Assembly: GCA_002839545.1 (NCBI GenBank)
Contig: PGYG01000013.1
Span: 1 to 36,572 of the forward strand
DNA from: Candidatus Methanoperedentaceae archaeon HGW-Methanoperedenaceae-1
Lineage (GTDB): Archaea > Halobacteriota > Methanosarcinia > Methanosarcinales > Methanoperedenaceae
Length of the DNA stretch: 36,572 nucleotides
Direction: 5' to 3'
A model generated the notes under the pieces. That model was given only the letters and a program-made list of their open reading frames with translations. It ran no database searches and was not told where the DNA came from. Positions 6,370 to 32,509 of the stretch are shown one piece after another (within the stretch, counting starts at the first letter, position 1; each line of letters begins with the position of its first letter). The translations under genes and the position numbers were made by a program.

Positions 6370-6453
6370 AACGGACATGTACAATGGATATGTGCATGGT
6401 AAAAACGTGGAATGTATCCTGAGCAGGATGGATAGGGTAGGAATATGTCCGTT
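6370..6453 (+). promoter_or_regulatory. Inverted repeat spanning the start codon of the giant cytochrome (AACGGACAT ... ATGTCCGTT)
   Basis: Perfect 9-bp complement 6370-6378 / 6445-6453, with an inner ATCCT-gagc-AGGAT stem at 6416-6429; the right arm begins at the ATG. Confidence 0.4.
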
Positions 6454-9400
6454 GGCGAAGATAGGGACTTAGAGGATTATAAAATAGGCAGTGGTAAATC
6501 AAACAGAGCTTTGTTTTTAGTTTTAATTGTTTTATCGGCGCTGTTTGCATCTGTTGGAGTGGCAGAGGCTGCGGGGACGCCGACGAAATTGATTGTGTTT
6601 ACTGATAAGAAAGTTTATATTGGTTGGTCAATGGGTGGTGGACAACAAGCTGCTAAACCACCGACAACTACACTTTTAAATACTTACCCAGCCCAAGACT
6701 TAAGAATATCTGTCTACGCTCTTGTTCTTGATGATGACGGAATGCCCATGTCTGGCAGGACTGTTACTGCTACTATAGCTGATGAAGCACATTTGGATCA
6801 CTACAACAAAAATGATAATACAGTCCATCACGTTGTTGATTCATCAATTTCTTCTTTCTTCAACATTGGTCCAGTCACTTTAACTGAAAGTGGTGGGATT
6901 TACTCATCTCAGGTAGATATTCCTGATATCGATATTACAACAAATTTATCATTAGCTGACGACCACATTTATGTGAATGTTACAGTAACTGATTCAGTGT
7001 TAGGTACACACAATTTGACTGTACTGGTTTCAGGGGTGAGATGCCACAATTCCTATGAAAGTGCTCATTCAGGCACACATTTCGGAGACGGCGCTGGCGG
7101 TCAGGATAATTGTGGGGTGTGTCATGCAGGCAATGAACATTGGTATGAAAATATTTCTGGTACAATTCCATATGAACAACAGGATGTTCATTTTAAGAAA
7201 ATGCCGTCTTTTGAATTTTATGGGGTGGGTAAAGACTTCAGTGATTTTGAATGGAATCTGTCTTATAGACCTGACGCTGTTAGAGAAAGTGCTAATTGGG
7301 GGGTTTACTGGCCAGGCTCCCAGTATTGTGGGGCATGCCATTTGAATCGAATAGGAACTACTAATTATAATTATGATTACGGGGTAGATAGGGCGGATTT
7401 AAATGATAAGCCCTCGTGTGGTTTTGCAAGTACATATTCATTTTCAGGAGGACCTGCATCAAGTAAAAATGATGCAACCACTTATCAAACCATTGGATGC
7501 CATGCTACAACTGAAATGCAAAACACAGCAATACCTTTGTGGTCGCCAGGTGCGGCGAGTTCTACTGAATATTGGAATAATAATATTAATTCGGGGAAGT
7601 CTCATAATATTTCAGGGAATAGCCCGAATGTTTCATGTGCCACATGTCATTTAACGGTTCATGGTCTAACCCTACCAAATAAGACAGTTTCAACAAATGT
7701 AAATGACCAATGCAACTATTGCCACACCAGCGACGGTCCTTCAACTGCACCCCATACCACATCAACTACAGACTGTACAGTATGCCACAAAAGCGATGTC
7801 GGTGTGCTTGACGCCCATATTCCGACTGCTTCATCAGGCGGCGTGAACTGTGCCTCCTGCCACGACATCTCCGGCACAGCAGGTGCTGACATCGACATAA
7901 CCAACACAGACAGCAGTGCCCATGCCAACTTAAACAACCTTTCCCAATACACAACCGGAAATGCCAGCAACCGCAAATGCTGGGCATGCCACGGCAACTC
8001 CTCAAACAGCTATGCCAACGAAACAAACCAGCCGGACGGTCATTATTCAACTTACAAAACACCCAGAACCTGCCCAGACTGCCATGACAATACCGACCCG
8101 AACTCAAACTTCAATGCCCCGCAGGCAGTCGAACACACACAGGGCGCGCCGACAGTTCCAACAACAGACATTAAATGTTCAATCTGTCACAACAACAGCC
8201 TGACCTCAATAACCGAATCTGACGGCTTCGGTCTTTCAATAGGCGGCGATTCAAAGAACGCTTCAGTATCCCACTACCTGACCACATCAAGCCTTATGAC
8301 AAGCAGTGATTGCAGGTGGTGTCATATTACCAACAACTTATCAGCAGATTGGGGAACGCCGTTTGACCCCCGAAACGGTACTAATTATGCCCATACAGAA
8401 GACAATGTTGCCCTTAACGCAAACTGTTACAACTGCCACGGCGGACTGACAGCCTCCGTCAAACTCCATGACACCGGAATAACAGCAGGCGGCTCAGGCG
8501 GTCAGGACTGTGTAAACTGCCATGACGGCACAACCGGCAGCAAGGTAAACGTGGATAACATGAACAATTCAGACAGCATCCACCTGAACCTGAACACAGG
8601 CGGCACTGCAAACGGCAGGGCTGAGAACAAGATATGCTATGCCTGCCATACCAATGACAGTTACATTGCAGGTGGTGTTGTCAATAACAACAGCATTCCA
8701 ACAAGTGACCATCCGACAGGATACCTTACACCAAAGAACTGTACCCTGTGCCACATAAACACAAACTCAAACACTAACTTCAGCGCACCGCAGGTATCAG
8801 AACACTACATGAGCGGCACGGAACTACAGACAAGGAATTATGCTAACCTGAACGACTCCTGTATCGGCTGCCATATAGAGAACGAAATGCTCCAGCCTTA
8901 CTCTGATGATACGGGCACGAGTTACAGCAATATCTCACACTACGGAAAGAGCAGGAACAACACTGCCCTTGTGGCAGGCGATGTTGTCAACTGCAAGTAC
9001 TGCCACGATAATGGTTCAAGTACCACATTTGACTTTGTAGATACCACAAACAGGACAATATCCAACCACAGCGCTAATTCATTAACAACCCCGGAATGTA
9101 CCCTGTGCCATAACGAAGGCAGGATGCACGACGGGAATCTTACAAGTCCGGCACTTGACGAAACTCTCTGTACCGGCTGCCATACAACCCGTGACAACCA
9201 TAGCGGGTTAGTATCATGCCTCTCTTGCCATGTCAACAGCAGTGCTTCAAGGGACAAAGTCCACCCAATCAATTATATTACTACATCAGGCACATTCGCT
9301 GCCGCCAATACCACGGCGGTAAATTGTGAAGATTGTCACCAGGGTTCGGGTATTGCAGGATTTGAAAACGCTCCAAGAGTTGCCCAGCCGGTAAATCACA

Positions 9401-12400
9401 GCACCGATGCAAATTCAGGTCAGAAATGGGGCAATTACTGGTTATCTGACAATGCGTCATGCGAATACTGCCACGGTGACACAAGGCATAACATCACAGC
9501 CCTTGGTAATCCTGCCAGCTTCCAGGGCAGTAACGTTATTGGCAGCGATCTTACAGGCACATGGTGTCTTGGCTGCCATTTAAACGGTTCAGCCAATTAC
9601 AATAATATGCTTGACAACCTATCTCTGGCTCCGCCTGAAATCACGGCAGGTGACACAAATTATCCGGTAAGCGGTACTCCAAAGGATCATACTGGTTTAA
9701 CCATGGTAACTGACAATGACTGTACGGTTTGCCATGCAGGTGATACCACAAACATCACCACCTACATGCATGACTTGGAAGTCGGGCAGGAAGGCGGTCG
9801 TGATTGTGTTAGCTGCCACGACATCGGCAAGAGTACGGCAAAAGTCGATGTCAGCAAGATGAATACCAGCACTTCCATCCATACAAACCTGAACTCATTA
9901 GCAACTGCCAGTATAACAGATAACAAACGCTGCTGGGCTTGCCACAGTAACAGCAGTGTATCAGGTGACGGACAGGTTGATGAATCCGAACTCCCGGACA
10001 GCGGTCATCCAGACGGTTACGACACACCAAAGAACTGTACCCTTTGCCATGTTGACAATAACTTCGGGGCTTTAATTGTCGGTGAGCATTTCACAGGCGG
10101 CACTGATATTAAGACAAAATCATACGGCAACACCAACGATTCCTGTGTCAATTGCCATAACAAGACAGAAATGCTCCTGTCTAACAGCGACCCCGCCGGC
10201 ACGAAATCCATTTACGCCAGTGTCAGCCACTACGGCGACAACAAGACAGGCGTTTCCCCGTATAACACAGGCAGTACTTCCAACTGTACTTACTGCCATA
10301 ACAACAGTGGTACTGCATTCAGTACCGAAATGGTCGATTCAGGAAGCAATACTTCCATAACCAACCATACGAACCTTGGCACGAATCCGGGATGTACAAA
10401 CAGTACGTGCCACAACAGCGGCAGAATTCATTTTACAACGTTATCCAAACCAACTGTCAGTACAGCTTTGTGTACAAACTGCCACGATACAAAATCCCGT
10501 CATAATGATAGTATAGAATGCAGTTCATGCCACCTTGAAACAAACCTTAGCATCCATGGCATCCAGTATCTCCAGCCAGACACAAGCTGGGGTCTTAACA
10601 GTCCAGGAAATAAGAGCAGTGCCGTCAACTGTACCGACTGCCACCAGGGAACGGGCATCACCGGCTTCAATGCCGTTATGATTCCTGACCCGATGAAACA
10701 CAGTTCTAATCTTTCAAACGGCAGCATCTGGGGAACGTACTGGAATACAACAACAGAATCCTCCTCTTCATGTGTTTACTGCCACAACGATACAAGGCAC
10801 AATGCCACAGGTCTTGGTAAAATAAATTCCCTGTTAACAGATGGTAATAATAGTAAAAACGGTAACCTTGCCACGACTACCTGGTGTATCGACTGCCATT
10901 ACAGCGGTGCCCAGAATTATCTCGGAAGCATGTGGACTCCCAACCCGCCGAAGATAGACACCAATAACACAGGCAAGACAAACTGGGAAGACCATAACAG
11001 CTACCTCTCCGCAGGTGTAAAAGACAGTAATTGTCAATCCTGCCATGCCCTTAATGTCAGCAGCGGTGCCTATACAGCAACTTCATTAAATTACTCTCAC
11101 AGCCTTGATGAAGGTGTTGCAGGCGGACCTAATTGTATCGAATGCCACAGTCTTGAAGCAGGTCTTGTTGGTGCTTCTTCAGGAATCAACTTCACTGCAA
11201 TGAACCTCAGCGCCCACTTCGGAATGAACAGTGCCAATGCAACAGCACGGGGCTATGTTCCGGCAGTAGGAGCATGCTGGGCATGCCACCAGAGTAACGG
11301 CAATGTCACAAGCGGTCATCCTGATAGAAAGACAGCTCCCAAAACATGTACTGAGTGTCATCTCGGAACAGGCACATTCAACGCATCTGCATATAATGCA
11401 ATGATAGTCAGTGAACACTACTATGGCGGCAATGATATCAAGGCTGGAAACTCAAGTTCAAGTATTGCATCCTGTCTTAACTGCCATGAAAACGTCAGTG
11501 AGATGATAACACTCAACAACGACAATGATTACGGTTCTTTCACAGGCGATGGGATAAGACTAAACGGCGGCAACATGAGTGCCTACCACTATGGCAAACC
11601 AAGGACAGACCTGAGAGTCGGCAGCGGTTCAAGGGAGTCGAATTGCCTGTACTGCCACCAGAACTTAAGCACAGCCTTTGCAATTGCAATGGAAAAACCA
11701 GGAATTAGTATGTATATTTACAACCATACTGATAACCCGGGACAAAGATGTGCATCATGTCACGGTTCAAACAACCGCCTGCACAATAACAGCTTATCTA
11801 TTCCAAACAGCGGCATAGTGGACAATGATTATTGCCAGACCTGCCACGGTCTAGGAGTTGCGGGTACAAGAGCCATACCTGACACGCATAATAGTTTTAC
11901 CATGAATTGCTGGAATTGCCACCAGGACCCAAATGAAACTATGTACCAGACTCCTGTTCACGGTATGATGTACGCCCAGACCAATGGAAGTTACCAGAGG
12001 TTCATTAAGGGAAGCCCTGCGAATTGTACTACATGCCATGTTTATAATCTTGTGAACACTTCTACAAACTATGCAACACTTATCCCTGAATTGAATCATT
12101 CAACTGATTCATACGCAGGTCAGAAATGGGGCAGCTACTGGAATAATACCTCCATGATTACAGCGTGTTATTATTGCCACCAGACTGAACCGCATAACAT
12201 AAATTCAGCACTCATCGGCAATGTATCAACTTACATACAAGGTTTAAATACTTACAATAATCCCGACATCTCTACTTCAACATGGTGTGCAAATTGTCAT
12301 TATGCAGGTGCTGCAAATTATGGCGGGAATAATCTTGTTCCGGTTCCACCCGAAATAACCGATTCAAGTTTGACCTCTTCGGATGGTACACCTTTCGAAA

Positions 12401-14235
12401 ACCACAGCACTTACTTCCCAGGTGGATATACGGATGATACATGTAAGGAATGCCACAGCCCTGTCGGAAATTATGAAGAGACTACACGCAACTTTTCACA
12501 CAGCCTGAATGAAGGAGGCGGCGGACCTGATTGTGTTTCCTCAGGCTGCCATGGTTTAACAGGTTCAGCTACATCACCATACATGAACTGGACATCACTA
12601 AAATCAGGCATGCATGCCGCCCTCAACAGCGGGGCTGACACGACAGGCATGACCGACCCGATAGTGGCAGCCTGCTGGGCATGCCACGGCGACGGCACAA
12701 AACCAAGCGGACATCCCACGAACTACCAGCAGCCATATTACTGTAAAGAATGCCATCTTGCTTCAGGGAATATTACAGGAAAATATCCTGCTAAGAATGT
12801 ATCTGAACACCAGCATATTGATGCAAAGGTTCTCACTAATTCCAATTATGCCAGATGCGAGGATTGCCATAACAACAGCCTTGCTGCGTATTCGGATAAT
12901 GAGACAAATGCATTATTCAATTATACACTTGGCAATGTTTCCCATTATGGCGCTAATAAGACAGCGGGCAAACTGATGGAATCCACAGTAAATTCCACAA
13001 ATTGTGTTTATTGCCACCTCAACAATTCAAACAGGCAGAAATGGTCAAACGCTACCAATGCCACAGCGACAAAACCTGATATCCACAGCAATTACAATGC
13101 TGCTACATCCAGCAGTGAATGCTGGGGCTGCCACGTGGACGGCGGTGTTTCATCGGTAAATGCCGGATTCACCCTGCATGATGATTCATTAAATCCGGGT
13201 GCCAGTGAATTCTGCATGAACTGCCATACACAGGGAGGAAGTGCCCAGAATGTCAATGTCAGCAGTAATGACCTCGGTCTGCACGTTAACCTGAATACAA
13301 GCGCTGGAACGGGAATTCTTAATAACAGTGACTGCTGGAGCTGTCATTTCGGGTATCCGAATGGTATATCGGGGACGCATTCATACGATGTCAGCCGCCA
13401 GAATACCTATTATTGTGAGGACTGCCATGGACCTGTTAAAAATGGTACTGCACAATCCAGGGGTTATGCCTCGTCGGGTCATGCTTTAGCTGATTTCTAC
13501 CACGGAAAGACCATAGCAGATTATTTTGCAGGAAATCCTCCGAAATACAAGGACTGTACAATATGCCATCTTGCCAATGACAGCCGCACAGACATAAACG
13601 GTAATCGTTTAAAGATTTACCATAACCAGACACCACTTGGTAAAGTAGCAAATACCGGCTGGGACGGATGGACTGTGGGAATGGTGCCAGGCTGCAACGA
13701 CTGCCACCAGACGCGGAACCTCAATGACGGTCCGTTCCATGCGCCAGGTAAGGATCATTATGTCGCCTCATCAGGCGGGTGTAGTTACAATTGTCATGAT
13801 ATGCTGGCTGCAATCCCGGTACACGAACAGATATCATTTGGGGATGAGTTATCCAAAAAATATATTGGAGTTACCCCGCCGGAGATACGTTCCATAAGTG
13901 TCAACTCTCCTGTCGTGGAAGGTGCCAATGTTAATATCACTGCATTTGGGTTGGATAATTACCTCCAGATAGCAACTGGACAGTACAGGGTTGTCAACAG
14001 CACAGGCGCAGAAGTTGCTGGATGGACGACAATGACGCCCCAGAATAACAAATTCAAGTCCCGGGCGGAGACTTCACTGGGTACTATTGTTACAACTGGA
14101 TTTACGGCAGGAAATTATACGGTGTATGTCAGGGTGATGGCTTCAGGACCGAAAGCAGACCTGACTAAACGAGCTTATCCCTTAAACGGGGCGTGGTCAG
14201 GTACTTACAGCACAAAATTCACGGTGAAACCATGA
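6445..14235 (+). CDS. Giant secreted multiheme c-type cytochrome (56 CXXCH + 2 CX4CH + 1 CX3CH by hand count)
   Basis: 2596 aa; N-terminal signal sequence (ALFLVLIVLSALFASVGVAEAA), Ig/MG2-like N-term, dense CXXCH array, Ig-like C-term, no C-terminal TM. Confidence 0.95.
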   Translation: MSVGEDRDLEDYKIGSGKSNRALFLVLIVLSALFASVGVAEAAGTPTKLIVFTDKKVYIGWSMGGGQQAAKPPTTTLLNTYPAQDLRISVYALVLDDDGMPMSGRTVTATIADEAHLDHYNKNDNTVHHVVDSSISSFFNIGPVTLTESGGIYSSQVDIPDIDITTNLSLADDHIYVNVTVTDSVLGTHNLTVLVSGVRCHNSYESAHSGTHFGDGAGGQDNCGVCHAGNEHWYENISGTIPYEQQDVHFKKMPSFEFYGVGKDFSDFEWNLSYRPDAVRESANWGVYWPGSQYCGACHLNRIGTTNYNYDYGVDRADLNDKPSCGFASTYSFSGGPASSKNDATTYQTIGCHATTEMQNTAIPLWSPGAASSTEYWNNNINSGKSHNISGNSPNVSCATCHLTVHGLTLPNKTVSTNVNDQCNYCHTSDGPSTAPHTTSTTDCTVCHKSDVGVLDAHIPTASSGGVNCASCHDISGTAGADIDITNTDSSAHANLNNLSQYTTGNASNRKCWACHGNSSNSYANETNQPDGHYSTYKTPRTCPDCHDNTDPNSNFNAPQAVEHTQGAPTVPTTDIKCSICHNNSLTSITESDGFGLSIGGDSKNASVSHYLTTSSLMTSSDCRWCHITNNLSADWGTPFDPRNGTNYAHTEDNVALNANCYNCHGGLTASVKLHDTGITAGGSGGQDCVNCHDGTTGSKVNVDNMNNSDSIHLNLNTGGTANGRAENKICYACHTNDSYIAGGVVNNNSIPTSDHPTGYLTPKNCTLCHINTNSNTNFSAPQVSEHYMSGTELQTRNYANLNDSCIGCHIENEMLQPYSDDTGTSYSNISHYGKSRNNTALVAGDVVNCKYCHDNGSSTTFDFVDTTNRTISNHSANSLTTPECTLCHNEGRMHDGNLTSPALDETLCTGCHTTRDNHSGLVSCLSCHVNSSASRDKVHPINYITTSGTFAAANTTAVNCEDCHQGSGIAGFENAPRVAQPVNHSTDANSGQKWGNYWLSDNASCEYCHGDTRHNITALGNPASFQGSNVIGSDLTGTWCLGCHLNGSANYNNMLDNLSLAPPEITAGDTNYPVSGTPKDHTGLTMVTDNDCTVCHAGDTTNITTYMHDLEVGQEGGRDCVSCHDIGKSTAKVDVSKMNTSTSIHTNLNSLATASITDNKRCWACHSNSSVSGDGQVDESELPDSGHPDGYDTPKNCTLCHVDNNFGALIVGEHFTGGTDIKTKSYGNTNDSCVNCHNKTEMLLSNSDPAGTKSIYASVSHYGDNKTGVSPYNTGSTSNCTYCHNNSGTAFSTEMVDSGSNTSITNHTNLGTNPGCTNSTCHNSGRIHFTTLSKPTVSTALCTNCHDTKSRHNDSIECSSCHLETNLSIHGIQYLQPDTSWGLNSPGNKSSAVNCTDCHQGTGITGFNAVMIPDPMKHSSNLSNGSIWGTYWNTTTESSSSCVYCHNDTRHNATGLGKINSLLTDGNNSKNGNLATTTWCIDCHYSGAQNYLGSMWTPNPPKIDTNNTGKTNWEDHNSYLSAGVKDSNCQSCHALNVSSGAYTATSLNYSHSLDEGVAGGPNCIECHSLEAGLVGASSGINFTAMNLSAHFGMNSANATARGYVPAVGACWACHQSNGNVTSGHPDRKTAPKTCTECHLGTGTFNASAYNAMIVSEHYYGGNDIKAGNSSSSIASCLNCHENVSEMITLNNDNDYGSFTGDGIRLNGGNMSAYHYGKPRTDLRVGSGSRESNCLYCHQNLSTAFAIAMEKPGISMYIYNHTDNPGQRCASCHGSNNRLHNNSLSIPNSGIVDNDYCQTCHGLGVAGTRAIPDTHNSFTMNCWNCHQDPNETMYQTPVHGMMYAQTNGSYQRFIKGSPANCTTCHVYNLVNTSTNYATLIPELNHSTDSYAGQKWGSYWNNTSMITACYYCHQTEPHNINSALIGNVSTYIQGLNTYNNPDISTSTWCANCHYAGAANYGGNNLVPVPPEITDSSLTSSDGTPFENHSTYFPGGYTDDTCKECHSPVGNYEETTRNFSHSLNEGGGGPDCVSSGCHGLTGSATSPYMNWTSLKSGMHAALNSGADTTGMTDPIVAACWACHGDGTKPSGHPTNYQQPYYCKECHLASGNITGKYPAKNVSEHQHIDAKVLTNSNYARCEDCHNNSLAAYSDNETNALFNYTLGNVSHYGANKTAGKLMESTVNSTNCVYCHLNNSNRQKWSNATNATATKPDIHSNYNAATSSSECWGCHVDGGVSSVNAGFTLHDDSLNPGASEFCMNCHTQGGSAQNVNVSSNDLGLHVNLNTSAGTGILNNSDCWSCHFGYPNGISGTHSYDVSRQNTYYCEDCHGPVKNGTAQSRGYASSGHALADFYHGKTIADYFAGNPPKYKDCTICHLANDSRTDINGNRLKIYHNQTPLGKVANTGWDGWTVGMVPGCNDCHQTRNLNDGPFHAPGKDHYVASSGGCSYNCHDMLAAIPVHEQISFGDELSKKYIGVTPPEIRSISVNSPVVEGANVNITAFGLDNYLQIATGQYRVVNSTGAEVAGWTTMTPQNNKFKSRAETSLGTIVTTGFTAGNYTVYVRVMASGPKADLTKRAYPLNGAWSGTYSTKFTVKP

Positions 14236-16371: not shown

Positions 16372-16977
16372 ATGACTTTGGGTACAGGCATCCCCAGAAA
16401 AACGGTTCTTTTGTCAATAGCCTTGCTGGCAGTTGGCATGTATTTCCTGCCTGCCACATTGTCTATCTTTTCAGGTCAGCATACTTTTGTTAACGGCAGT
16501 GATGTAAATTGCAGGAAATGCCATGAGGATATTTACCAGCAGTTAAATCCGTCATATGGCGATACTCCACACAGGTCACTTACGACATGTAATGTCTGTC
16601 ACCGCACAGGATTCCAGCCAGGCGGCTTTCCCGGTGCAACTCCGGGTTTTTTAGGGTATAAAGAAGTAAACGTAAGTGCTGACTACAATGCCCATTCTGC
16701 CATAACGTTAGAATGTGTGTTTTGCCACGATTTGATTACAAATGAAATTACAGGTTCTGATGAAGCACACGGCAGTTATTATAATGCATCCAACCAATCC
16801 ACGATACTGAAAGGAGGAAATGAAGCCTGCGTTGGCTGCCATACCCATACTACGGTAAATATAACATGGGTTCGCAACACAGGTTATGGAATGGATGTAG
16901 ATATCCTGTCAGGTACATGGAATATGTCATTCTCATTAAACGAGACTACGGTTAATACAACCTCAGCAGGTCAGTAA
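16372..16977 (+). CDS. Tetraheme c-type cytochrome, N-terminally anchored/secreted
   Basis: 201 aa; CRKCH, CNVCH, CVFCH, CVGCH; hydrophobic N-terminus. Confidence 0.85.
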   Translation: MTLGTGIPRKTVLLSIALLAVGMYFLPATLSIFSGQHTFVNGSDVNCRKCHEDIYQQLNPSYGDTPHRSLTTCNVCHRTGFQPGGFPGATPGFLGYKEVNVSADYNAHSAITLECVFCHDLITNEITGSDEAHGSYYNASNQSTILKGGNEACVGCHTHTTVNITWVRNTGYGMDVDILSGTWNMSFSLNETTVNTTSAGQ

Positions 16978-23920: not shown

Positions 23921-24559
23921 TCATGTGTCAATGGCTGTAAAAATTGAAGACATTACAAAATTGTCCACACCATATTTTACAAATGCATCCCTGTTTTTTT
24001 TAAGACAGTTGAAGGCAAAAAATTTTCTTGTTCTTCTGGCTTTTTCAAGTTCCTCATTGTAAGCAGCAATGGTTAATTCATAAGCATTTATTAGCGTACA
24101 ATTATTTTTTATCATTTCCAATATACCTTTATTAGCAGCTCTTTTGAATGCCAGAACATTCTGTTCATGAAACCATACTTCATCACAGTAACCTAAGAAC
24201 CCCATTCCGCCATACTCAACCATTTTTCTCCCCAACTCCTGACCACAACTGCATGAATGCAAGTAAAAGAAATTTTCACTGAATAGTGTACGATCATCTG
24301 CAGAGACAGAGGAGAGTAATTCCTCGTTATTATGACCTGTAAAAAGTTGTGGGCTTCCATGACCAAAACCAAAGACTATTGAGGGATGATTCTCAGGAGA
24401 AGATAAAAATCTCTCAACATTTTCACGTGTGGCGTCAATACTCAACAGGTCTCTGAACGAGATGCTCTTTTCTTCAAGAGCTTCCATTATTTCTGCTGCA
24501 CAAGTCTGTGCAAACAAAGTAAATGGGTCATGGCATGCTCTTATTAGAAGGCAATTCAT
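23921..24559 (-). CDS. Caspase/CHAT-like (clan CD) putative protease
   Basis: 212 aa; IVFGFGHGSPQLFTG (putative His) and FFYLHSCSCGQELGRKMVEYGGMGFLGYCDEVWF (putative Cys loop followed by G..GFlGY) follow the caspase-hemoglobinase order. Confidence 0.6.
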   Translation of the reverse strand: MNCLLIRACHDPFTLFAQTCAAEIMEALEEKSISFRDLLSIDATRENVERFLSSPENHPSIVFGFGHGSPQLFTGHNNEELLSSVSADDRTLFSENFFYLHSCSCGQELGRKMVEYGGMGFLGYCDEVWFHEQNVLAFKRAANKGILEMIKNNCTLINAYELTIAAYNEELEKARRTRKFFAFNCLKKNRDAFVKYGVDNFVMSSIFTAIDT

Positions 24560-24560
24560 T

Positions 24561-25142
24561 TTAATTAAGCACCTCTAGAGCAAAATCAGCCAAACTTTTT
24601 CTCAATTCTATTCCAAGGGGCGTTCCTTTTTTAATTTCATCAATAATTCGTTTCGGACTGTATTTATCTCCACTGGAGTTCACCATAATGGGTGTTTCCT
24701 TGTCAGGGCAACTTTTATACCACTTCTCATAAGTTGAAATAATACTATCAGTTTTGAAGTCTTCACATTTCTTGATTATCTTCTGAAGTTCACTTGCGGA
24801 TTTACTTTTACTGAAGTATTCGGCAATACCAAGATTTATTGAATTAATAAGAATCCGATCCATATCCGCCTCTTTTTCAAGTTGACCACTACAGAGAACA
24901 ATAGGAATAAACTGATCGTATGCCCTGATTTTAGTGATTACATCGATTCCGTTATCTTTGTTTGCCCCTCCATTGAGCAATTTGTAATCTATAATCAGGA
25001 CATCAAAGAAATCCTGTTTTATGAGTTCAATACCTTCGTTAGATTTAGTCTTGATTATTACCTCAATTCCTTCGGATCTCAGATATTCTGCAATATCTTC
25101 AGACCATTCCTCGTCATCATCAATTATCATCACTTTAGTCAT
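24561..25142 (-). CDS. Response regulator (REC domain + ~70-aa C-terminal extension, no DNA-binding HTH evident)
   Basis: KVMIIDDDEEW, DVLIIDYKLL (phospho-Asp), FSKSKSASEL (conserved Lys). Start reset to ATG 25142, 1 nt past the upstream stop. Confidence 0.85.
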   Translation of the reverse strand: MTKVMIIDDDEEWSEDIAEYLRSEGIEVIIKTKSNEGIELIKQDFFDVLIIDYKLLNGGANKDNGIDVITKIRAYDQFIPIVLCSGQLEKEADMDRILINSINLGIAEYFSKSKSASELQKIIKKCEDFKTDSIISTYEKWYKSCPDKETPIMVNSSGDKYSPKRIIDEIKKGTPLGIELRKSLADFALEVLN

Positions 25143-25143
25143 T

Positions 25144-27198
25144 TTAACCCCTCTTTGGAAAAACAAGCAAGAGAGACAAACCACCAAGTTTAGACGATTC
25201 TACACCGATGCTGCCGCCGTAGGTCTCCATTAGTTCCTTTACTATAGTGAGTCCTAAGCCCGTGCCTTCTTCATTTTCTTTTGTTGTGAACAATGGATAA
25301 AATATCTTATCCTGATTCTCAGGCGGGACCCCCGGACCGGAATCATGGAACCTTACAAATATACTTTTTTCATTATCATTAAACTCTACCTCAATTTTTC
25401 TCTGAGATACATCTTTATATTTCAAGAAATAAACCGAGTTCAGAAGCATATTTATGAGTATAGACTCAAAGTCTATTCTGAACATTTTGTAATTACTATC
25501 CTTTAACTCGTTCAATATCTTGTGTTCTATCCCAAATTTTTCCAAAACAAAAGAGAAATGTGTAAATATGTAATCTGCAACACCATATAAGTCAACAATC
25601 TTGGTCTTTCTTTTATCTTTCTTGATGTATCCTATGACGAGATCAATAAAAAGTTCGTTTTTATCCAATAGTTCTTTAATGTTGTCCAACCGTTTCAAAT
25701 AATTCGGGTCTTTTGAGAGATCCTTATCCTTATATAAAAAATCGAGTTGCGTTCTCATCCGACCAATAATCGGGCGGATTTCATGTGCGGAGTAACCCGC
25801 AGTCACGCCTATTGTTGCCAAGTTCCGGTATAAATCCTTCTGTTCTTTTTCTGAACTTATTTCCTCTTTTGCGTCATTAACAAGAGTCTGGATAATTCCT
25901 TTGATATCCGTCTTTTTATCAGGGCTTATATTTAATTTCTCGACAGCTGCATTGATTTCTTTCTCTTTCTCCTTTATTCTCTTTGTAAATTTGGATTTTT
26001 CTTTTTTCTCGATACTCTTTCTAAAGGTTGCAAATGCCCAAAGTGATTTTTCAAGAAAAATAACCATATCGTCATATGCATCGTTTCTTATGAGTCCTTC
26101 TCTTGTTGTTGTATCTGTTATCTGATAATTTTCATCACGAGTAATTTTGACATAACCAATAACCTGATTATTGTCCGGGTATTTTATTTGCCTGATATGT
26201 AGTCTCTTATGATACAGTTCCAGCCAGTCATTGCCTGGATCACCGTAAGGTTTGACCCTGAATCCGTCCCGGTATATCTTTATTCCTGATGCTGACTTGA
26301 GTTCACTGCTTATTTGCTGTCTCGTTTGTTCGGGATAAAACCTTTCTTCTCCAGAACCGAGAGGATAAAAGTAAAGTACAAAATTCAATTTTCCACAGAA
26401 TCGTTTACCTATGTCAATAACGCTGCTGATTTTTATGTCATCTTCAGTGATACCATATCTTGATCTGCCTTTGGAAGAATATTTGATTTTGGATTCGCCA
26501 TCATATTCTGAACGGAATACATATTTATATTCATCAAATAGATAATTGTCGAGATTTTCTTCATGAATCAGATACTCCTTGCATATCACATTGACTACAA
26601 AATCAGCCCCTACCTCTTTTGGGGGTGTTAGTATGCTGACTTCATCAGCAAAATTTTGAATCATCTTTTTTGTCCACACATCTCTTAATCCTGTGATCAG
26701 AACTCTGAACCCATGCCATTCATCGCTGACCGCATTTAATGTTGCTTCGTGTGTTACTTTGTCAAATGTTGTGCCGGGCTTCTCAAAGTCCTCCCAATTA
26801 ATACGGATAACTAGATCTTCAGGTTCTTTGTCCTTCTTGGTTGTAATTTCAGAAATCCTGCCAAGTCGTTCGATTGAAAATCTGCCAAGACCTTTCTCTC
26901 CGATTTTTCGTCTGCCTTTGTTGCTCATCGGATGTATTTCTTTGTCTTCGGTGCCCACCACCATCCATTTCAGTTTGAACTCTTCAAGGTTCATCCCGTC
27001 GCCATCGTCAATAACTTCAATAGATGCTTTTTCAGAATCTTCAGGAACAGAAAAAATTACTTTGACTTTTCTTGCATCTGCATCATAAGAATTTTTTATT
27101 AGTTCAAAAAGCGCAACAATTGGACTACTAACTGATTCTCTTCCGAGCAATCGTGCTATTTTTCCTGAAAATCTGAATGATAGTGGCTCTATTCTCAT
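25144..27198 (-). CDS. Dual-GHKL protein: N-terminal Hsp90/MORC-type ATPase fused to C-terminal histidine kinase
   Basis: N-term ALFELIKNSYDADA, VIDDGDGMN, IGEKGLGRFSIERLG; C-term SAHEIRPIIGRM (H box), LINMLLNSVYFL (N box), DSGPGVP, YPLFTTKENEEGTGLGLTIVKEL. Confidence 0.88.
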   Translation of the reverse strand: MRIEPLSFRFSGKIARLLGRESVSSPIVALFELIKNSYDADARKVKVIFSVPEDSEKASIEVIDDGDGMNLEEFKLKWMVVGTEDKEIHPMSNKGRRKIGEKGLGRFSIERLGRISEITTKKDKEPEDLVIRINWEDFEKPGTTFDKVTHEATLNAVSDEWHGFRVLITGLRDVWTKKMIQNFADEVSILTPPKEVGADFVVNVICKEYLIHEENLDNYLFDEYKYVFRSEYDGESKIKYSSKGRSRYGITEDDIKISSVIDIGKRFCGKLNFVLYFYPLGSGEERFYPEQTRQQISSELKSASGIKIYRDGFRVKPYGDPGNDWLELYHKRLHIRQIKYPDNNQVIGYVKITRDENYQITDTTTREGLIRNDAYDDMVIFLEKSLWAFATFRKSIEKKEKSKFTKRIKEKEKEINAAVEKLNISPDKKTDIKGIIQTLVNDAKEEISSEKEQKDLYRNLATIGVTAGYSAHEIRPIIGRMRTQLDFLYKDKDLSKDPNYLKRLDNIKELLDKNELFIDLVIGYIKKDKRKTKIVDLYGVADYIFTHFSFVLEKFGIEHKILNELKDSNYKMFRIDFESILINMLLNSVYFLKYKDVSQRKIEVEFNDNEKSIFVRFHDSGPGVPPENQDKIFYPLFTTKENEEGTGLGLTIVKELMETYGGSIGVESSKLGGLSLLLVFPKRG

Positions 27199-28505
27199 TG
27201 CATTAACCTTGCTATATTTTTAGCAATATTCATCGACATTAAAGGAGGAACCGAATTTCCAATCTGTTTGAATTTCTTGCTGATTGAACCACAAACAACA
27301 AAATCGTCAGGGAAAGACTGCATTCTTGCAGCTTCTCTTGGTGTTATCGTTCTTGCCTGTTCTGGATGGATAAATCTGTTTCCGTCTTTCTCAAGATGGG
27401 CGAAAACGGTTGTTGATGGCTGATCCCACTTCTGTTTCCTATACTTATCCTTAAATGTATCCATATTATATTTGATGAGCTTTCTTGCAAGTTTTGGATT
27501 TCTATTTATGAAATCTCCCGCAGTTTCGCCCTCATTCATGTTTCTGAATAGTTCTATATCCGAAGACTGTTGACCTCTAGCGGTGTGATGATCAAGATAT
27601 TCATAACCATTTGGTCTAACAAAGCAAAGGAATTGTTTTCCAGATTCGCTTATTTTGCTGATATGGTCTTCAAATTTGCTCTTGTCAAATATTGTTCTGT
27701 CTAATCCATTCTCAACTTTTGTGTTATGCCCCTCAACTACCTTCCATTTGTTTTTTGTTAGCCCGGTTTTTGTTATCTTAGGTTCGACTTTCGGGAGATC
27801 ACCTATTGCTTCATACAGGTTTACATATGGTAACAATTTTGTATCTGCTTTTTCTTTTGTTGAATTTAAATCATAGTGTGTTGGCTCAATTACAGGCACT
27901 TTAATGTCCTTCCATTTTCGAAGAATTCCAATTAGAATTACTCTTTCTCTTTTCTGAGGAACGCCGAAATCTGCAGAGTTGAGAATGATATATTTTTTCC
28001 CGTCATTATTCTCGAAATTATACCCTGATTTCTCTAAGTCAGAAATTATTTTGTCTATTATTTTATTTCCTTCCGGGTCTTTTTTTGAGAGTATTCCTTT
28101 CACATTCTCTATTACTACAATGTGCGGCTTCAGTTCTGAGACAATTTTAGTGAATTCCTTGTGAAGGTGATCCCTTCTATCCTGCTTGAACTGCTCCATT
28201 TGTTTTCCGTAACCTGAGCGTGGTCCTAGCAGCGAGAAACTCTGACATGGAATTCCTCCGACAACGATTAAAACATCTCCTTTGCATTCCCTGATGACCT
28301 GTTCATGGACTTCGGGTTTCGTGAGATCACCTTCAATTACTTTTTCAGTTCCATGTCTTTTTCGCAAAGTTTCACATGCATATTTGTCAATTTCAACAGC
28401 CTTATGCAATTCAAATACTGGATTACCAGAGTCATCTCTGACTAATTCAAAGCCAAGAGATAATCCCCCGGCCCCGGCAAACAAATCAAGTATTTTTATG
28501 GTCAT
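27195..28505 (-). CDS. C5-cytosine DNA methyltransferase
   Basis: DLFAGAGGLSLGFE (I), GGIPCQSFSLLG (IV), VIENVKGIL (VI), QIGNSVPP (X). Confidence 0.95.
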   Translation of the reverse strand: MTIKILDLFAGAGGLSLGFELVRDDSGNPVFELHKAVEIDKYACETLRKRHGTEKVIEGDLTKPEVHEQVIRECKGDVLIVVGGIPCQSFSLLGPRSGYGKQMEQFKQDRRDHLHKEFTKIVSELKPHIVVIENVKGILSKKDPEGNKIIDKIISDLEKSGYNFENNDGKKYIILNSADFGVPQKRERVILIGILRKWKDIKVPVIEPTHYDLNSTKEKADTKLLPYVNLYEAIGDLPKVEPKITKTGLTKNKWKVVEGHNTKVENGLDRTIFDKSKFEDHISKISESGKQFLCFVRPNGYEYLDHHTARGQQSSDIELFRNMNEGETAGDFINRNPKLARKLIKYNMDTFKDKYRKQKWDQPSTTVFAHLEKDGNRFIHPEQARTITPREAARMQSFPDDFVVCGSISKKFKQIGNSVPPLMSMNIAKNIARLMQ

Positions 28506-28920
28506 TGCGATATCCTTTTTCTAATAATTCTTTTAATACCGTAAGGTAACACTCGTTAATGTCTTTTTCTATTTCGTGTTCCCAGAATCTGAGAACTGTC
28601 CATCCTTCTGTCTTGAGCATCCTATTTATCTCGTTATCTCTCTTTACGTTACCATCTATCTTTTTAATCCAAAATCTCTTACGTGTCGCAGGTTCATTAA
28701 AATGCTCAGGGCATTTGTGCCAGAAACAACCGTCAACGAAAATAGCGACTTTATATTTCGAAAATATTATATCCGGTTTTCCTTGCACTCCGAATAATCG
28801 ATAACCCCTTAATCCTTTAAAAAATAATAATTTTCTTAACCTCATTTCAGGCTTTGTGTTTCTCCCACGTATCATTGACATGTTGTAACTTCTCTGCTTT
28901 TTTGTCAATACATCAACCAT
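28486..28920 (-). CDS. vsr: Very-short-patch-repair (Vsr)-like endonuclease
   Basis: SYNMSMIRGRNTKPEMRLRKLLF, GKPDIIFSKYKVAIFVDGCFWHKCPEH, GWTVLRFWEHEI. Confidence 0.92.
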   Translation of the reverse strand: MVDVLTKKQRSYNMSMIRGRNTKPEMRLRKLLFFKGLRGYRLFGVQGKPDIIFSKYKVAIFVDGCFWHKCPEHFNEPATRKRFWIKKIDGNVKRDNEINRMLKTEGWTVLRFWEHEIEKDINECYLTVLKELLEKGYRNDHKNT

Positions 28921-29047
28921 ACGTAACTCGTATTTATACTCCTTTTTATATTTTTATATATAGTCTTGTATGGTAATAAATTGATGCTTGGTCGCCACGT
29001 TCCAGTTTTCACGTTAGAAATCAATTGAACCTATTTTTCCTGTATGT

Positions 29048-29285: not shown

Positions 29286-29486
29286 ATGGAAACAGTGACA
29301 AAATTAAAAGACTTAACCGTCGACGAATTTAAAACTTTGATCTCAGATACGATAAGAGAGAGCATGGAAGATTTGCTTGAAGATCTAACTGCTCTTTCGA
29401 GTAAGGAGTATATAAGCTCTATCAGAGAAGCAAGAGAGGATTACAAGCATGGCAGGGTGAAGAGCATCGAGGAAATTGATGTATAA
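29286..29486 (+). CDS. RelB-like antitoxin
   Basis: 66-aa acidic protein overlapping the RelE gene. Confidence 0.65.
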   Translation: METVTKLKDLTVDEFKTLISDTIRESMEDLLEDLTALSSKEYISSIREAREDYKHGRVKSIEEIDV

Positions 29487-29727
29487 TGTACTTCTCACCC
29501 AGAAGGCATTAAAAGACCTGGATGCATTAGAAAAGCAAGTTCGTATCAGAATAATCAAAAAACTCAAAGAATATGCATCCAAACCTATAAGAGATATTCG
29601 AAAACTCGAAAGTCCAAAAATAGGAACATACAGATTTAGAGTTGGCGACTACAGAGTAGTATTTGATATTGATGGTGAAAATTTAGTCGTTTTAAGGGCT
29701 GGGCATCGGAAGACTATTTACAGGTAA
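29479..29727 (+). CDS. relE: RelE/ParE-family toxin
   Basis: YNVLLTQKALKDLDALEK... PKIGTYRFRVGDYRVVFDIDGENLVVLRAGHRKTIYR. Confidence 0.88.
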   Translation: MYNVLLTQKALKDLDALEKQVRIRIIKKLKEYASKPIRDIRKLESPKIGTYRFRVGDYRVVFDIDGENLVVLRAGHRKTIYR

Positions 29728-31100: not shown

Positions 31101-31349
31101 ATGTATATGATGAATAGTACTATGACAAAGGAAATTTTAATACATAAGACCTTTGATTATTTAAATCGTCTTCCTCAGGATAAAGTTGTTGAAGTTGCAG
31201 AATTCGTTGAATTCCTATATCAGAAACATGAAGAGTATATTTTGAAAAAAGGAATTCAAAAGATGGTAACCGATTCTAAATCTTTCGAATTTTTAAAAGA
31301 AGAAGAGGAACTATATACTTTAGATGATTTAAAAGTGCGGTTCAAATGA
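31101..31349 (+). CDS. Antitoxin-like protein (MazF partner)
   Basis: 82 aa; LNRLPQDKVVEVAEFVEFL pattern; 4-bp overlap with MazF-like gene. Confidence 0.65.
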   Translation: MYMMNSTMTKEILIHKTFDYLNRLPQDKVVEVAEFVEFLYQKHEEYILKKGIQKMVTDSKSFEFLKEEEELYTLDDLKVRFK

Positions 31350-31672
31350 ACAAAGGCGAAATTATTCTGGTTACATTTCCTTTTACAGATCTATCAGGCA
31401 GCAAACTGCGGCCAGCTTTAGTCTTAGCCGCTGATAGAGATGATGTTACCGTGGCGTTTATTACAACTAACCTGCAGCAGGTTAATAATACCGATATGTT
31501 TGTGCAGAAAAGTAAGACTAATGGTTTAAAAAAAGATTCAATTGTGAAGTTGAATAAAATAGCTACGCTTGATTATAGTTTAATAATGGGTTCAGTAGGA
31601 TTATTAGTTGAGAATGAATTAAAAGAAGTGAATCGAAAATTATTACTTATTTTTAATATTAATGATTCTTGA
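31346..31672 (+). CDS. MazF/PemK-family toxin
   Basis: GEIILVTFPFTDLSGSKLRPALVLA...LKKDSIVKLNKIATLD. Confidence 0.88.
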   Translation: MNKGEIILVTFPFTDLSGSKLRPALVLAADRDDVTVAFITTNLQQVNNTDMFVQKSKTNGLKKDSIVKLNKIATLDYSLIMGSVGLLVENELKEVNRKLLLIFNINDS

Positions 31673-31717: not shown

Positions 31718-31795
31718 GGCCATACTCCAGCCCCCTCCCCGCAATCAGACCCGGTACGTGCGGCATGCGCGGAGCCAGGACAGGTGCGGAGAGCA
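31718..31795 (+). repeat. Interspersed GC-rich repeat, copy D (core 31746-31795)
   Basis: Core CAGACCCGGTACGTGCGGCATGCGCGGAGCCAGGACAGGTGCGGAGAGCA. Confidence 0.85.
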
Positions 31796-31895
31796 TATCG
31801 TAATCAAATGCTGTGTGTCCAACCTTAGGGTTTACAATTCTGGAGAGGTCACCACATGTTCAGTCGAGTGTGTTTGGTATGAAGTAAATTTAAAT

Positions 31896-31916
31896 ATATG
31901 TTTAAACATATGTTTA
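31896..31916. promoter_or_regulatory. Overlapping palindromes (ATATGTTTAAACATAT and TAAACATATGTTTA) upstream of vapB, putative operator
   Basis: Two perfect palindromes (16 bp at 31896-31911, 14 bp at 31903-31916) ending 3 nt before the ATG at 31920. Confidence 0.65.
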
Positions 31917-31919
31917 CTT

Positions 31920-32135
31920 ATGACAGCCAAGACTATAACCATACGCGAAGATATTTACAAAATGCTCCTCTCTATAAAGGGAACGAATGAGAGTTTTAGC
32001 ATTTTTTTTGAACGGCTCGTAAAATCCCGAAAAAATATTGATAAACTCAAAGAATTAAGAGCCTCTGTAGAATTCAGGAATAAAGAAGCTCTTTTGAAAG
32101 AGTTATCTGATAAAAGAAAAGAGATAAGATATTGA
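31920..32135 (+). CDS. vapB: VapB-type antitoxin (DUF217-like)
   Basis: MTAKTITIREDIYKMLLSIKGTNESFSIFFERLVK; overlaps the vapC start. Confidence 0.8.
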   Translation: MTAKTITIREDIYKMLLSIKGTNESFSIFFERLVKSRKNIDKLKELRASVEFRNKEALLKELSDKRKEIRY

Positions 32136-32509
32136 TCCTTGCTGATACCGATGTTCTTATTGAGATTTTCGATAAGAACTCAAATAAAGGGGCAGACGCT
32201 TTGCAGAGGATAGAGGAAGCCGGAGAGGATATTTCTCTCACTTCACTGAATCTTCATGAGATACTGTTTGGTATATATAAATATGCTGATAAGCAAAAAG
32301 CCGAGAAAATAATGCTGCTTGAGGTTGTTGATTTTACGAAAGATGATGCTGCTCTCTCTGCCAGACTTGAAGTGAAAGCAGAGAAAAAAGGGAATAAGAT
32401 ACCCAGGTTTGATACAATGATCGCAGCAGTTGCCATAAATCGGGGTTTCAAATTATTCACTTTTAATAAAGACCACTTTGAAGTTTTTGAAGAACTGGAA
32501 CTGTTTTAG
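32132..32509 (+). CDS. vapC: PIN-domain VapC toxin
   Basis: ILADTDVLIEIFDK..., LNLHEILFGI, PRFDTMIAAVAINRGFKLFTFNKDHF. Confidence 0.88.
   Translation: MILADTDVLIEIFDKNSNKGADALQRIEEAGEDISLTSLNLHEILFGIYKYADKQKAEKIMLLEVVDFTKDDAALSARLEVKAEKKGNKIPRFDTMIAAVAINRGFKLFTFNKDHFEVFEELELF

Follow-up and report, generated by a model that had tools for sequence, protein, structure and literature searches.

The closest described relatives of the locus analysed here are elements identified computationally in 628 bacterial strains, in which a dual-GHKL kinase and a response regulator (RR) occur with a C5-cytosine DNA methyltransferase (C5-MTase), often together with Vsr (Bellieny-Rabelo et al., 2021; PMC8011034). 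That study covers bacteria only, mentions no caspase, protease or effector mechanism, and links the kinase/regulator pair to the paraMORCs (Iyer et al., 2008; PMC2292703). Detocs combines a histidine kinase, a receiver and an effector for immunity, with kinase and receiver in one operon; Detocs/PNP has been reported to be absent from archaeal genomes, and caspases and gasdermins have been described as immune components (PMC11249213).

The window, by which we mean the whole stretch of DNA that was analysed, is contig PGYG01000013.1 (36,572 nt) of Candidatus Methanoperedentaceae archaeon HGW-Methanoperedenaceae-1, and all coordinates given here are window positions unless another locus is named. 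Its five-gene cassette resembles the HEF_HK/Response_reg_2 elements (PMC8011034) in the soluble kinase built of HATPase_c_3, a DHp-like His and HATPase_c, in the adjacent receiver protein, and in the C5-MTase, Vsr and HNH neighbours; the HATPase_c_3 plus HATPase_c architecture was found by domain search in 15 of 15 kinases. It differs from them in that the two profiles do not match window-type kinase and RR proteins: PF19191 (HEF_HK) matched nothing in the window's genome at E≤10 and none of the 15 kinases at E≤0.01, and PF19192 (Response_reg_2) was not found at E≤1 in the window RR, which matches PF00072 instead. With the paraMORC/MORC GHKL ATPases of restriction–modification (R–M) systems (PMC2292703) and the BbrUII/HgiDII enzymes the cassette shares an N-terminal GHKL module and C5-MTase and Vsr neighbours, but the window kinase has a histidine-kinase transmitter in the place taken there by helicases or nucleases, whether carried or recruited. 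Unlike Detocs, whose kinase–receiver–effector logic it shares, the cassette has a methyltransferase and a GHKL input module, and a domain search found no PNP (ATP-cleaving) effector domain in it. The methyltransferase recalls type II R–M, yet no cognate type II restriction endonuclease was found, only Vsr (of the mismatch endonuclease family) and a kinase scoring far below the BbrUII cut-off. Clan-CD proteases serve as immune effectors, as in the bacterial caspase/gasdermin and TPR-CHAT (type III-E CRISPR) systems, and the proposed effector here is a putative member of that clan; control is proposed to differ, running through a phosphorelay via a receiver-fused adaptor, and neither a gasdermin nor a CRISPR gene was recognised among the cassette's genes. 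Against PADLOC-DB 2.0.0 the MTase and Vsr match R–M models, the kinase and RR give weak partial matches only, and the protease matches no model.

The full novelty that the original prediction suggested is thus reduced, since four of the five parts (dual-GHKL kinase, regulator, C5-MTase and Vsr) are already known together in bacteria, without mechanism or effector (PMC8011034). The five-part arrangement as originally set out matched no characterised system, and no description of the caspase version was found in the literature searched, which was mostly open-access papers without bioRxiv preprints. The caspase effector, the adaptor link, the archaeal case and the swapping of effectors look new.

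Layout and extent of the operon

According to the ORF list, a tight run of five genes (vsr, C5-MTase, kinase, RR and protease) lies on the minus strand, with the following features.

28486–28920, minus strand: vsr, very-short-patch repair endonuclease, 144 aa (NCBIfam TIGR00632, 139.8 bits, cut-off 97.85; Pfam PF03852)
27195–28505, minus strand: C5-cytosine DNA methyltransferase, 436 aa, PCQ and ENV motifs (Pfam PF00145, 222 bits; TIGR00675 above cut-off)
25144–27198, minus strand: dual-GHKL histidine kinase, 684 aa (HATPase_c_3 and HATPase_c; ATP-site motifs and H472 kept across 102 proteins)
26773–27120, minus strand: N-terminal GHKL module of the kinase, aa 27–142 (PF13589, HATPase_c_3, 73.5 bits; NF050001, 65 bits against a cut-off of 550)
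25783–25785, minus strand: codon of the phospho-acceptor His472 of the kinase, motif AHEIRP (His in 100/102 aligned proteins)
25153–25473, minus strand: C-terminal HATPase_c of the kinase, catalytic domain, aa 576–682 (PF02518, 85.7 bits)
24561–25142, minus strand: response regulator, 193 aa, receiver and C-terminal adaptor (PF00072, 49.6 bits; structure model matches receiver domains)
24987–24989, minus strand: codon of the phospho-acceptor Asp52 of the RR (Asp in 95/95 regulators)
24561–24701, minus strand: C-terminal adaptor of the RR, motif YSPKRIIDEIKKGTPLG (common to receiver-less proteins directly upstream of protease homologues)
23921–24559, minus strand: caspase-like (clan CD) protein, 212 aa, proposed effector (AlphaFold pLDDT 90.4; best PDB matches are caspases)
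24359–24361, minus strand: codon of the putative catalytic His67 of the protease (H67-G68 invariant in 14 homologues, including distant ones)
24251–24253, minus strand: codon of the putative catalytic Cys103 of the protease (C103 invariant in 14 homologues; after core strand aa 97–101 in the model)
23926–29027, no strand: extent of the mobile cassette by blastn similarity to L059 (operon and ~107 bp upstream, with A/T-rich TATA-like sequence)

The ORF coordinates agree with the five packed, co-directional genes originally described: vsr and the MTase gene overlap by 20 bp, the MTase and kinase genes have ATGA (27195–27198) in common, and gaps of 1 nt separate kinase from RR and RR from protease. 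ORF calls in the neighbourhood are mechanical throughout, and that of the RR begins at a TTG (25187); the ATG at 25142 gives a clean receiver start and has GAGGGG directly upstream, inside the end of the kinase gene, and by these sequence features the RR start is best placed there. A scan for sigma-70 promoters and terminators gave no more than in shuffled sequences, as expected since the host is an archaeon.

The five genes recur in the same order in L059 (genome G339), which belongs to another genus of the same archaeal family, with 88% identity for the kinase and 78% for the protease. This conservation of the whole operon rules out a chance co-location of the five genes and upholds the unity that had been claimed for them. 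When the 16-kb L059 locus was compared with the whole window by blastn, one match only was obtained (23926–29027; 85.0% over 5106 columns), and the window outside the operon and its ~107 bp upstream had no blastn similarity to L059; as far as sequence comparison can tell, such a sharp-edged stretch of ~5.1 kb is what one would expect of a cassette that moves in one piece. Plasmids carry many relatives of the kinase, with 932 records when coverage is left free and 77 when at least 80% of the query must be covered, and a further 80 loci lie on viral contigs. Moreover, a phage-like contig (L192) carries a complete C5-MTase/kinase/adaptor-RR/caspase-like set, adjoining a 1449-aa protein that is likely a tail tape-measure protein.

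Elsewhere in the window, toxin-type genes lie near the cassette (ParE-type, 29476–29727; PemK/MazF-type, 31101–31672; PIN-domain, 31758–32509). At 6445–14235 a 2596-aa multihaem cytochrome with MtrC/MtrF-like and cytochrome c7 matches is encoded, with a small cytochrome c7-like gene nearby (16372–16977); these genes suggest extracellular electron transfer by the host.

Kinase, regulator and caspase-like protein

The kinase combines two GHKL ATPase domains in one protein. When 84,980 genomes were scanned using an alignment of the kinase, at least 80 loci were obtained from many bacterial phyla and from archaea, a set from which no prevalence can be read; in nearly all of these loci the gene right after the kinase encodes a regulator. 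The phosphorelay proposed at the outset gains from the conservation of both phospho-acceptors, the receiver Asp being present in every one of the 95 regulators (including those of the window, plasmid and archaeal loci) and the kinase His in all but two of 102 proteins. The two exceptions, L083 and L085, are without a kinase half and without a neighbouring RR, and in the similarly short L103, again with no adjacent RR, the aligned His falls outside any kinase half; these three provide a natural control for the phosphorelay. They are GHKL-only proteins of 554–574 aa with a differing C-terminal part, accompanied by a C5-MTase and by Vsr or an HhH-GPD-like glycosylase, and their GHKL module also matches MutL models, weakly. 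The window kinase matches NF050001, the model of the BbrUII/HgiDII restriction enzymes, over aa 24–179, at the score far below cut-off given above.

A second dual-GHKL kinase system is present in the window's own genome (L026, contig C128, 6739–11655), with a C5-MTase, a kinase, a 363-aa RR and Vsr and without a protease; the ORF at 11652–12209 of that locus, considered as an effector gene, has no family match and is likely a chance ORF.

The RR had originally been taken for a receiver protein without an evident output. No DNA-binding domain was indeed recognised in it, by domain search or in the structure model, but an RR devoid of an output part is ruled out, as its C-terminus is a short module with the motif YSPKRIIDEIKKGTPLG. 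Other archaea have small proteins that carry this motif but no receiver and are encoded immediately before protease homologues; L168, from the Spirochaetota sample, has a receiver-less protein with it as well. When a profile made from the receiver-less adaptor proteins only was run on 98 regulators, the seven protease-linked RRs took ranks 1–7, the weakest of them (L161) being marginal at E 0.08 and rank eight, from an HNH locus, having E 0.13. This ranking argues that the adaptor is specific to coupling with the protease, and judged from these sequences the adaptor is likely the output of the relay. In L168 (7855–10120) the adaptor and a caspase-like protein are directly followed by a DNA methyltransferase-like gene (DPPYG motif), without a kinase; L168 is possibly a kinase-free version of the adaptor/protease pair.

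A caspase-type effector was part of the original prediction, and the structure prediction for 23921–24559 speaks for it: the AlphaFold model is confident (pLDDT 90.4, pTM 0.88) and its best PDB matches by Foldseek are caspases (E 2e-4, prob 1.00), with a TM score of only 0.43–0.50, and the His-Cys pair is invariant in the 14 homologues. Profile and sequence searches name no peptidase, there being no significant match for the protein in Pfam, NCBIfam or PADLOC and no relative in a direct PDB sequence search. Taking model and conservation together, the protein has a caspase-like alpha/beta fold in the model, with a His-Gly and Cys pair placed after core strands, and is a putative clan CD peptidase. 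Neither a tblastn search of phages and plasmids nor a peptide-pattern search of viral contigs found relatives of it.

Some relatives of the protease stand in another setting. In L040 (6669–9754), L058 (5843–8510) and L060 (7585–10656) they are preceded by an adaptor protein, with a TTR-like domain in several, end in repeated C-R-[ST]-G-L-P-D-S-like segments and are followed by a radical SAM/SPASM-like protein; the upstream part of this arrangement is also found in L061 and L062. Such loci resemble RiPP-like clusters for peptide modification in which a caspase-like protein is fused to the core; given the radical SAM-like neighbour, the protease family is not restricted to defence.

Distribution and exchange of effectors

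The C5-MTase/kinase/adaptor-RR/caspase-like set recurs in L104, L140, L161 and L152 as well as in the phage-like contig, so that co-occurrence of kinase, RR and protease extends to L059 and to bacteria. Outside archaea the caspase version is found in Bacteroidota, Spirochaetota, one Clostridia MAG and the phage-like contig. It is rare: a single genome among the 345 of the Bacteroidota sample has it, and no more than three do among the 247 of the Spirochaetota sample. In the 80 loci compared, which were picked by their kinase only, the gene that follows the RR encodes an HNH protein in 24, a metallo-beta-lactamase (MBL) in 13, a protein of the U250 family in 12 and a caspase-like protein in 4, while most of the others have an extended regulator and no separate recognised effector; these labels come from simple profile searches, the genome samples are partial and several assemblies are MAGs. 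U250 is a family of ~245–270 aa that recurs where an effector is expected in dual-kinase loci of archaea and bacteria (L030, L031, L037, L096, L130 and others), and the two members searched had no Pfam match. One HNH protein from the slot was matched by PADLOC models of PtuB (Septu); for one MBL protein the matching models were those of LmuA (Lamassu), Avs1a and a reverse-transcriptase-associated MBL. Together with the mobility of the cassette and its presence on a phage-like contig, this relationship of slot effectors to Septu and Lamassu models bears out the defence-like setting claimed originally.

Effector type tracks the kinase tree: it changes 7 times along it, compared with 54 times after shuffling. 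Kinases coupled to a caspase-like protein form a bacterial clade and, elsewhere in the tree, the archaeal pair, but a single origin is not rejected (AU p 0.29). All caspase-like loci come with a C5-MTase; in HNH, MBL and U250 loci the MTase, where tagged, is of the adenine type. Genes for Vsr or for an HhH-GPD glycosylase recur beside the kinase relatives. Vsr itself was tagged near 8 of the 80 loci and near none of their four caspase-like loci, which argues against Vsr as the effector; the best reading of it is as the repair enzyme that usually accompanies C5-MTases.

Proposed mechanism and alternatives

The unity of the genes, their domain content, the conserved phosphotransfer and protease residues, the adaptor–protease link and the exchange of effectors in the slot were computed here, and with moderate confidence we suggest that the whole is best explained as a modification-gated, phosphorelay-driven defence cassette. 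In such a cassette the C5-MTase would mark host DNA and Vsr would repair the T:G mismatches that arise from deamination of 5-methylcytosine. Considering that the GHKL module is like that of BbrUII/HgiDII, and that the GHKL-only relatives sit beside a C5-MTase without a regulator, we propose that a DNA-inspecting module which elsewhere drives a nuclease here drives a kinase. The N-terminal GHKL module would then inspect DNA as a restriction enzyme would and, on meeting wrongly modified DNA, would activate the C-terminal histidine-kinase half without cutting. The kinase would autophosphorylate at His472 and pass the phosphate to Asp52 of the regulator, which, via its C-terminal adaptor, would release or activate the caspase-like protease (putative His67/Cys103). 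We infer that the protease is active and may cleave host or viral proteins, which would lead to growth stop or death of the infected cell, probably upon entry of foreign DNA. The signal sensed may be modification state, damage or a virus, and the defence outcome may be dormancy or death. Weighing against this reading are the low TM scores to caspases, the failure of every profile to name a peptidase, the radical SAM-like setting of some protease relatives and the rarity of the caspase version.

The same wiring could have been selected for self-maintenance, in a selfish addiction cassette in which loss of the MTase would leave unmodified chromosomal sites to be sensed by the kinase and the protease would kill cassette-free cells. 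R–M systems are known to act as addiction elements, and this general behaviour, the sharp edges of the mobile cassette and the kinase relatives on plasmids and viral contigs would all suit such a role; we nevertheless regard it as rather unlikely, given that the alternative effectors resemble those of antiviral systems and that one cassette lies on a phage-like contig, where excluding other phages is the simpler benefit. Addiction and defence are not mutually exclusive functions.

The recurrence of Vsr or HhH-GPD glycosylase genes, and the weak MutL-model matches of the GHKL module in the GHKL-only relatives, might instead point to a checkpoint for DNA damage or 5-methylcytosine deamination, in which a MutL-like GHKL module would act with Vsr on mismatches and the relay would tune physiology by limited proteolysis, with no part in defence. 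That is improbable in our view: the tagging of Vsr, near few loci and no caspase-like one, does not favour it, the adenine-MTase versions offer no 5-methylcytosine to deaminate, and the other effectors are mostly HNH and MBL proteins. More doubtful still is that the two-component pair regulates transcription or assembly of the methylation module, with the protease a regulator of the complex and not an effector. Two-component systems do normally control expression, but no DNA-binding domain is recognised in the RR, whose output part is specific to the protease, and nucleases are exchanged into the effector slot.

Returning to the modification-gated defence cassette, we see about an even chance that it represents a wider class, which may be called 'signalling restriction', in which a restriction-type DNA-inspection ATPase has had its nuclease replaced by a histidine kinase, so that in archaea and bacteria a check of DNA for self or non-self would feed, through a phosphorelay, into interchangeable effectors (HNH nuclease, metallo-beta-lactamase, the ~250-aa protein, or the caspase-like protease with its dedicated adaptor). 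If true, this would give a mechanism and effectors to widespread, functionally unexplained kinase–regulator pairs beside methyltransferases. It would also mean that a phosphorelay can connect the checking of DNA modification to programmed cell death, and that in an archaeon a caspase-type effector is placed under a receiver-fused adaptor.
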